Assembly (NCBI GenBank): GCA_029251005.1
Contig: JAQXEE010000075.1
Span: forward strand, 1-45,851
Source: Flavobacteriales bacterium
Lineage (GTDB): Bacteria > Bacteroidota > Bacteroidia > Flavobacteriales_C > GCA-002722245
Length of the DNA: 45,851 bases
Reading direction: 5' to 3'
Within the stretch, counting starts at the first letter, position 1, and each line of letters begins with the position of its first letter. The translations under genes and the position numbers were made by a program. The notes below the pieces were generated by a model. It searched no databases and was not told where the DNA came from. It saw nothing but the letters and a program-made list of their open reading frames with translations. Below, in pieces: positions 34,358 to 35,231 of this stretch.

Positions 34358-34954
34358 ATGAAGTTAGTCAACCTTTCCGATAAGGAATTAGTGAGAATTT
34401 ACATTAAAGGCGATGAGATAGCATTACAAGAATTGGTAAATCGTCATAGATCAAGAATCTATTCATACATTCTAGCAACAATTAAGAATAAAGCCTTAGC
34501 AGAAGATTTTTTTCAGGATACCTTTATCAAGGTTATTCAAACTTTAAAGGGAGGGAAGTATAACGAAGAAGGCAAATTTCTTCCTTGGGTGATGCGAATT
34601 TCTCATAATTTAATGATAGATTACTTTAGGAAAGAAAAAAGATTTAGAAAAGTAAATGGTAAGAGTAGGGATAATGAGGAGTATGATGTTTTTAGCACAA
34701 TTGGATACGAAGAGTTAAACATGGAAGAGCGATTAATTAAAGCTCAAGTTAAAACAGATGTGAAAGAGTTAATTGAACGTTTACCTGATGAGCAAAAAGA
34801 GGTTGTGTTACTTAGACATTATTATGATATGAGTTTTAAGGAAATTTCAGATATTACAAATGTTAGTATAAATACCGCACTAGGTAGAATGAGGTATGCT
34901 TTGATAAACCTTAGGAAACTAGTTGAAGAAAAGGGAGTCTCCTTAGAAATGTGA
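34358..34954 (+). CDS. ECF-type RNA polymerase sigma factor
   Basis: 198 residues. Sigma region 2 is visible as LVNRHRSRIYSYILATIKN and AEDFFQDTFIKVIQTL, then FLPWVMRISHNLMIDYFRKE. Region 4 is LPDEQKEVVLLRHYYDMSFK with the HTH SDITNVSINTALGRMRYAL. There is no region 3, so this is the ECF class. It directs RNA polymerase to an unknown regulon. No FecR-type or other membrane anti-sigma gene follows. Instead come a 12-bp inverted repeat, a 56-residue protein and a strong terminator, apparently the whole transcription unit. Confidence 0.92.
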   Translation: MKLVNLSDKELVRIYIKGDEIALQELVNRHRSRIYSYILATIKNKALAEDFFQDTFIKVIQTLKGGKYNEEGKFLPWVMRISHNLMIDYFRKEKRFRKVNGKSRDNEEYDVFSTIGYEELNMEERLIKAQVKTDVKELIERLPDEQKEVVLLRHYYDMSFKEISDITNVSINTALGRMRYALINLRKLVEEKGVSLEM

Positions 34955-34971
34955 AAATTCAAACAATAATC

Positions 34972-35006
34972 TATGTTTATTTACGTTATCAAACTAAATA
35001 AACATA
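34972..35006. repeat. Perfect 12-bp inverted repeat before a small ORF
   Basis: TATGTTTATTTA (34972-34983) and TAAATAAACATA (34995-35006) are exact reverse complements with an 11-nt loop. It lies between the sigma gene and the small ORF, ending 12 nt before its ATG. No T-run follows, so it is not a classic terminator. It could control translation or act as a DNA operator. Confidence 0.6.
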
Positions 35007-35018
35007 AAAACAAATTGT

Positions 35019-35189
35019 ATGGATAAACATTACTCTAAAGAAACTTCAGACAAAGAATTTGAAAACGCAGAAATGAATTATATATCAGAGCCAAGTGAAG
35101 CTGCTGTTGAATTTATCTTGAATTACTCAAAAAGCCTAAGTTTTAGGCAAAGCGAGATTGTTGGTTCAGTTTTTATTAACTTAAATTAA
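35019..35189 (+). CDS. 56-residue protein co-encoded with the ECF sigma factor
   Basis: ATG at 35019, stop at 35187-35189. The N-terminal half is polar and acidic (MDKHYSKETSDKEFENAEMN). The C-terminal half is a likely helix (AAVEFILNYSKSLSFRQSEI) ending VFINLN. No signal peptide or membrane helix. It lies 64 nt after the sigma stop and is followed at once by a strong terminator, which supports a real gene sharing the sigma transcript. By position it could modulate the sigma factor, but no known anti-sigma motif is seen. It is short enough to be missed by routine gene calling. Confidence 0.6.
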   Translation: MDKHYSKETSDKEFENAEMNYISEPSEAAVEFILNYSKSLSFRQSEIVGSVFINLN

Positions 35190-35199
35190 TCATTAAAAA

Positions 35200-35231
35200 A
35201 ATGTCGGAATTTATTCCGACATTTTTTTTTT
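35200..35231 (+). terminator. Strong intrinsic terminator of the sigma/small-protein unit
   Basis: AATGTCGGAAT and ATTCCGACATT form a perfect 11-bp stem with a TT loop, followed by a run of T. It begins about 10 nt after the small ORF's stop. Confidence 0.92.

Follow-up and report, generated by a model that had tools for sequence, protein, structure and literature searches.

The 45,851-nucleotide (nt) window analysed here (contig JAQXEE010000075.1 of assembly GCA_029251005.1, from a Flavobacteriales bacterium) carries the gene of an extracytoplasmic function (ECF) sigma factor, followed on the same strand by an open reading frame (ORF) of 56 codons. The small protein encoded by this ORF, and its relation to the sigma factor, are the subject of this analysis. 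The core of the locus is formed by these elements:

34358..34954, + strand: ECF sigma gene, 198 amino acids (aa), present in most Bacteroidia as a single-copy orthologue and, judging from its putative regulon, SigP-like.
35019..35189, + strand: small-protein gene, 56 aa, ATG start, founder of an undescribed family.
35195..35231, + strand: intrinsic terminator, with a 15-bp stem (35195-35228), a 4-nt loop and a T-tract.

The coordinates that the first-pass annotation gave for the sigma gene, the ORF and the terminator all hold. The sigma protein matched the Pfam domains Sigma70_r2 (E=3.5e-14) and Sigma70_r4_2 (E=4.4e-11), showing the sigma-70 regions 2 and 4 without region 3 that define an ECF factor, and its closest PDB relative was SigW (1.6e-17). 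A spacer of 64 nt separates both genes. The terminator, already described as perfect, was confirmed as a perfectly paired 15-bp stem (-18.5 kcal/mol, z -5.9), which a consensus terminator scan left unlisted. The absence of a normal adjacent anti-sigma gene was also borne out: the next ORF (35292-35729), with a hydrophobic N-terminus and possibly exported, gave zero matches in Pfam or NCBIfam, and no other anti-sigma-like gene was found downstream.

The same annotation took the ORF to be a genuine partner gene of the sigma factor that had escaped notice, making this depend on its presence downstream of orthologous sigma genes and on purifying selection on its codons, and both were found. A homologue lay directly downstream of the orthologous sigma gene at 91 of 95 loci, including those of Flavobacteriaceae, Sphingobacteriaceae and Chitinophaga-like genomes, and the homologue pairs (n=158, non-redundant) span Flavobacteriia, Sphingobacteriia and Chitinophagia. 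Family members have 43-110 aa (median 62, most of them 43-70 aa) and share the motif MxKx(F/Y)(S/T)...P..xTI..ILNYSKAL.V.......LN, in which a variable linker connects the short N-terminal MxKx(F/Y)(S/T) with the P..xTI..ILNYSKAL helix, which hardly varies; at the C-terminus the members usually end in LN. The pooled ratio of nonsynonymous to synonymous substitution rates (dN/dS) was 0.19 for the small gene (core 0.15, N-terminus 0.27) over 28 close pairs, two being duplicates of one species pair, compared to 0.036 (~0.04) for the sigma gene and to 0.8 and 1.7 for the shifted frames of the small gene; for the window copy against its closest relative alone it was 0.71, on 19 changes, which are too few to judge. 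These data strongly support that the 56-residue ORF is a true gene and a widely conserved companion of the sigma factor. No relative of the small protein was returned by Pfam, NCBIfam, PDB sequence or PDB fold searches. The undescribed family it represents occurs in over half of the Bacteroidia genomes sampled. In one genome, the C-terminal half of the small protein (NTIINYSKALSVRNSRMLDTVSLLLN) was also seen appended to an unrelated ORF (L134, 3015-3182), 1.5 kb downstream of the intact gene.

Co-occurrence of both genes was surveyed in 296 Bacteroidia genomes at least 95% complete, with a threshold of E<=1e-35 for the sigma orthologue, the next paralogue scoring near 1e-17 (14 genomes, looser search). 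The sigma orthologue was detected in 270 of the 296 genomes, as a single copy, and the small gene in 173 of these 270 and in none of the 26 sigma-negative ones (Fisher 2e-11, phylogeny ignored). Within one genus (g21), both genes were present in ten genomes and neither of them in two (G028 and G403), sprA being retained in the latter. The two genes are unlinked and yet both retained in more than 20 genomes, and in the tandem duplicates of the cassette (L136, L137, L138 and L140) each sigma gene carries its own small gene. That the small protein never occurs without the sigma gene, and hence is a sigma-dependent partner, is strongly supported; adjacency to and dependence on the sigma gene are features of anti-sigma genes. 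At six loci (L142, L151, L155, L009, L212 and L213), the unlinked small gene was observed directly upstream of nth, encoding endonuclease III.

Both genes are preceded by a common bipartite element, CAA(T/C)-N16/17-CGT(T), present in the window as:

34231..34255, + strand: putative sigma-dependent (ECF-type) promoter of the sigma gene, ACAATAAGTTACCTTTATGTTCGTT, one of nine strict genome matches.
34963..34987, + strand: putative sigma-dependent promoter of the small gene, ACAATAATCTATGTTTATTTACGTT, also a strict genome match.

AAC/CGT-like elements at such spacing are a hallmark of ECF promoters. About 99 of the 152 spacers contain the element ahead of the small gene, with a median distance to the ATG of 55 nt, and so do 15 of 18 entries in which the small gene is unlinked, a few of these entries being duplicates of one another; shuffled sequences gave about 1 in either set, and spacings of 13-15 and 18-19 stayed near background. 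The sigma gene has it at 64 of 157 loci, where the median distance is 137 nt and shuffles yield about 2 for each spacing. The strict form, ACAATA-N15/16-CGTT, has nine matches in the 2.9-Mb genome, with 22 for a reversed-pattern control; as two of the nine lie within 0.75 kb, their presence here is not a matter of chance. Because an ECF-type promoter stands before both genes, unlinked entries included, it is probably the sigma factor that transcribes the small gene. The annotation had proposed a single transcription unit with a spacer, whose parts are indeed present, but the promoter-like site at 34963-34987 lies within that spacer, so that one simple transcription unit is not required. Spacer terminators were observed at L025, L036, L062, L167 and L201, where the two genes are probably separate transcripts. 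For clades whose spacers are longer and hold such a terminator, transcription of the small gene seems to depend on a promoter of its own.

The putative regulon was scanned with the strict patterns, and only gene-specific recurrences were used, as the total motif counts did not exceed those of the reversed-pattern control. The strict motif precedes orthologous porV2, porU and sprA genes both in the window genome and in its sister species (a congener). The identities of PorV2 (437 bits, above cut-off) and of the SprA/Sov translocon (449 bits) were assigned with NCBIfam, whereas that of the PorU sortase rests on the best NCBIfam match of a fragment, below cut-off. The motif appears again before porV2 in a distant genome of a different family (G441; L288, 76 nt), and a few hundred nt upstream of sprA in the distant genomes G157 and G441, in this case inside the preceding ORF, where coding constraint could contribute to it. 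It was also observed before TonB/ExbB-type genes (L290 and L274; sequence resemblance, weak NCBIfam matches), which are possible further regulon members.

Judged by motif presence, the sigma factor of the window has putative target promoters before type IX secretion genes, as has SigP, the ECF sigma factor of the PorXY-SigP system of Porphyromonas gingivalis. SigP (PGN_0274) is of similar length (193 aa vs. 198 here), serves type IX secretion genes by binding the promoters of porV, porT, ruvA and porP, and regulates its own expression (PMC4800418, PMC7712824). As the motif precedes porV2, porU, sprA and the sigma gene itself, the sigma factor is read as SigP-like, an assignment made by its putative regulon; it likely transcribes itself, the small gene, porV2, porU and sprA as a SigP-type factor. 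A single-copy orthologue in 270 of 296 genomes is consistent with SigP orthology, together with the lone SigP homologue of F. johnsoniae (PMC10951265). In contrast, the consensus that PMC4800418 puts forward for SigP is not the CAAT-N16-CGT found here, and the cited PorXY-SigP literature describes no anti-sigma or small partner. In Flavobacterium psychrophilum, CGT-box promoters precede type IX secretion genes with the sigma factor left open (PMC9723704), as it is for the SM6 promoters of this species. The sigma factor was discarded as a requirement for having the secretion system, since sprA is kept in 17 of 20 sigma-negative genomes. SigP-type sigmas drive the secretion system used for gliding and polymer degradation, and for virulence in P. 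gingivalis and fish pathogens, and the small protein is a named candidate for keeping such a factor off.

A further conserved element was detected in the leader of the sigma mRNA:

34287..34360, + strand: conserved 5' leader, with a GCCTATA(G) box (from 34294) and a hairpin enclosing the sigma start codon.

In this leader a GCCTATAG box is followed some ten bases later by (T)CTACTTT, after which come a variable loop and the complementary 3' arm, reaching the ATG; box and hairpin were seen in the leaders of about 100 loci. RNAalifold on the raw alignment gave no structure, as the arms shift register, and it was replaced by arm-swap and covariance-model tests. Native arms paired at -8.6 kcal/mol vs. 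-5.5 when swapped between species (99 non-redundant leaders; 0/5000 permutations), and covariation exceeded 500 of 500 shuffles on two measures, alternative registers leaving a third of the cells unpaired. In 7 of 8 genomes the covariance model gave one match, that at the sigma gene, and an Rfam search with the leader gave no family match. In the window the leader folds with a z of -2.96. Across the 99 leaders the last 13 nt, including the AUG, are mostly paired, and the hairpin presumably limits translation of the sigma mRNA. An extended Shine-Dalgarno control as described for rpsU (PMC9976891) was rejected as a common feature, being strong in only 21 of 141 leaders. Shared promoter, type IX secretion link and structured leader go beyond the first-pass annotation and are the stronger and newer points of the present analysis, which supplies a candidate gene together with a definition of the promoter and an RNA element predicted to exert control.

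The small protein had been described as acidic and helical, and each term applies in part. The window copy has a net charge of -5, but the family median is +2 (range -11 to +13), and AlphaFold predicts one helix plus a beta-hairpin, or in some clades the helix alone. A membrane segment is absent in 158 of 158 members (none above the 1.6 hydropathy limit), so that the transmembrane helix of membrane-bound anti-sigmas (Dma/Reo, RseA-like) has no counterpart in them, and the small protein is predicted to be soluble and non-membrane. At least two cysteines were found in only 8 of the 158 members and none in the window member, and the zinc-ligand pattern HxxxCxxC of zinc-binding anti-sigmas is not present in the family.

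Three types of known partners were compared with this family. NepR, of about 60 aa, soluble and with its gene under sigma control, acts with EcfG and PhyR in the general stress response of alphaproteobacteria (structure: PDB 5uxx). The small protein resembles it as a small soluble partner beside an ECF sigma, NepR-side sigma activity being tied to a response regulator, but NepR has two helices instead of the predicted helix and beta-hairpin, and the family profile found no NepR chain in the PDB at E<=10. With respect to class I anti-sigma domains (RseA, ChrR, RsiW type), some clades keep a form of about 80 aa which, on visual inspection, resembles an anti-sigma domain without zinc (DLIxYLYxETxxE...P...TV..IL.YS) and ends in the same helix, a likeness of form that lends indirect support to the anti-sigma reading; unlike those domains, the family lacks zinc ligands and a membrane segment, most members have 43-70 aa, and no profile match above cut-off to the four-helix domain was obtained, the short members being predicted as one helix and a beta-hairpin. 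Finally, EcfO-Reo and Das-Dma (Dma/Reo anti-sigmas, ECF21) are likewise Bacteroidota ECF sigmas with an adjacent partner gene, but these partners span the inner and outer membranes (PMC13114119, PMC13088901) whereas the small protein is tiny and predicted soluble; EcfO-Reo was rejected as the known counterpart on this basis.

Being predicted soluble and non-membrane, putatively sigma-controlled and sigma-dependent, the small protein is best read as a feedback anti-sigma, and with moderate confidence we favour that it is an obligate, sigma-controlled soluble partner of the ECF sigma, most likely a minimal feedback anti-sigma that would bind it. The sigma factor would transcribe its own gene along with the small gene and those of type IX secretion; the TI..ILNYSKAL helix would dock on the sigma factor, and the docked protein would keep it off RNA polymerase until released by a signal, which in Porphyromonas could be the PorXY response regulator that binds SigP, while the leader hairpin may restrict translation of the sigma mRNA. 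A bolder version, a three-way switch of the type IX secretion sigma factor of Bacteroidia in which a tiny sigma-made anti-sigma is displaced by PorX, in an independently arisen NepR-PhyR-like manner, and a start-codon hairpin gates the sigma mRNA, appears unlikely.

Several observations weigh against the feedback anti-sigma. In 97 sigma-positive genomes the small gene was not detected, so either the sigma factor can do without the small protein or the gene is too diverged there. Intrinsic terminators stand between both genes in several clades. Searches with anti-sigma profiles found no match above threshold, a sub-threshold match to one anti-sigma family (E 0.022) being the only one. Inter-protein mutual information between sigma and small protein equals that of within-clade shuffles (effective number of sequences, Neff, 109), and AlphaFold models the helix and hairpin equally well with and without fusion to sigma, with confidences (predicted local distance difference test, pLDDT) of 93/88/81 for blocks of the isolated protein and 94/91/87 for the fused one. 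The fused model was a natural sigma-spacer-small read-through (L005), used as a stand-in for the complex, and a docking claim based on it was dropped, the isolated protein being nearly equally confident. The earlier proposal of a co-encoded regulator is partly supported, as the sigma-type promoters before both genes, even when unlinked, fit a co-regulated partner, which may bind or regulate the sigma factor.

Other readings of the small gene have to be considered along with the feedback anti-sigma. A chance reading frame in the 3' untranslated region, no gene at all, would fit a short ORF without any database family; the conserved protein motif and synonymous bias across the phylum, as well as its own promoter and unlinked copies, contradict this, and with the dN/dS result we count it as refuted, its probability being negligible. 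The protein might also be an ordinary member of the sigma regulon which does not touch the sigma factor, such as a secretion adaptor, a PorX ligand or a stress effector. The promoter would place its gene in the regulon, several unlinked copies lie beside nth, and AlphaFold and covariation gave no physical link to sigma. However, the gene adjoins the sigma gene in most clades while other putative regulon genes are scattered, each tandem sigma duplicate carries its own copy, and it is lost along with the sigma gene while sprA stays, which makes this reading possible but doubtful.

RsoA is a positive co-factor of Bacillus SigO, and the small protein could similarly be a co-factor or specificity helper instead of an inhibitor. 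Co-occurrence, shared promoter and co-retention when unlinked would be the same, and a positive partner explains the absence of the gene without sigma equally well. Nevertheless, the 97 sigma-positive genomes without a detectable copy indicate that it is not universally needed for activity, and Pfam shows no relation to sigma domains, for which we consider a positive role improbable.

The remaining elements of the locus concern its surroundings and the spacer:

31354..34137, - strand: uvrA, divergent neighbour, conserved upstream of the sigma gene.
34972..35006, + strand: A+T-rich spacer hairpin, with 12-bp arms and a z of -4.2.

The usual order is uvrA (divergent, at 79 of 84 testable loci), sigma gene, small gene and often nth (99 of 167), such that uvrA and nth place the linked cassettes in a DNA-repair neighbourhood. 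The spacer hairpin overlaps the promoter-like site of the small gene, and by eye the sister species retains a version of it with one changed pair.
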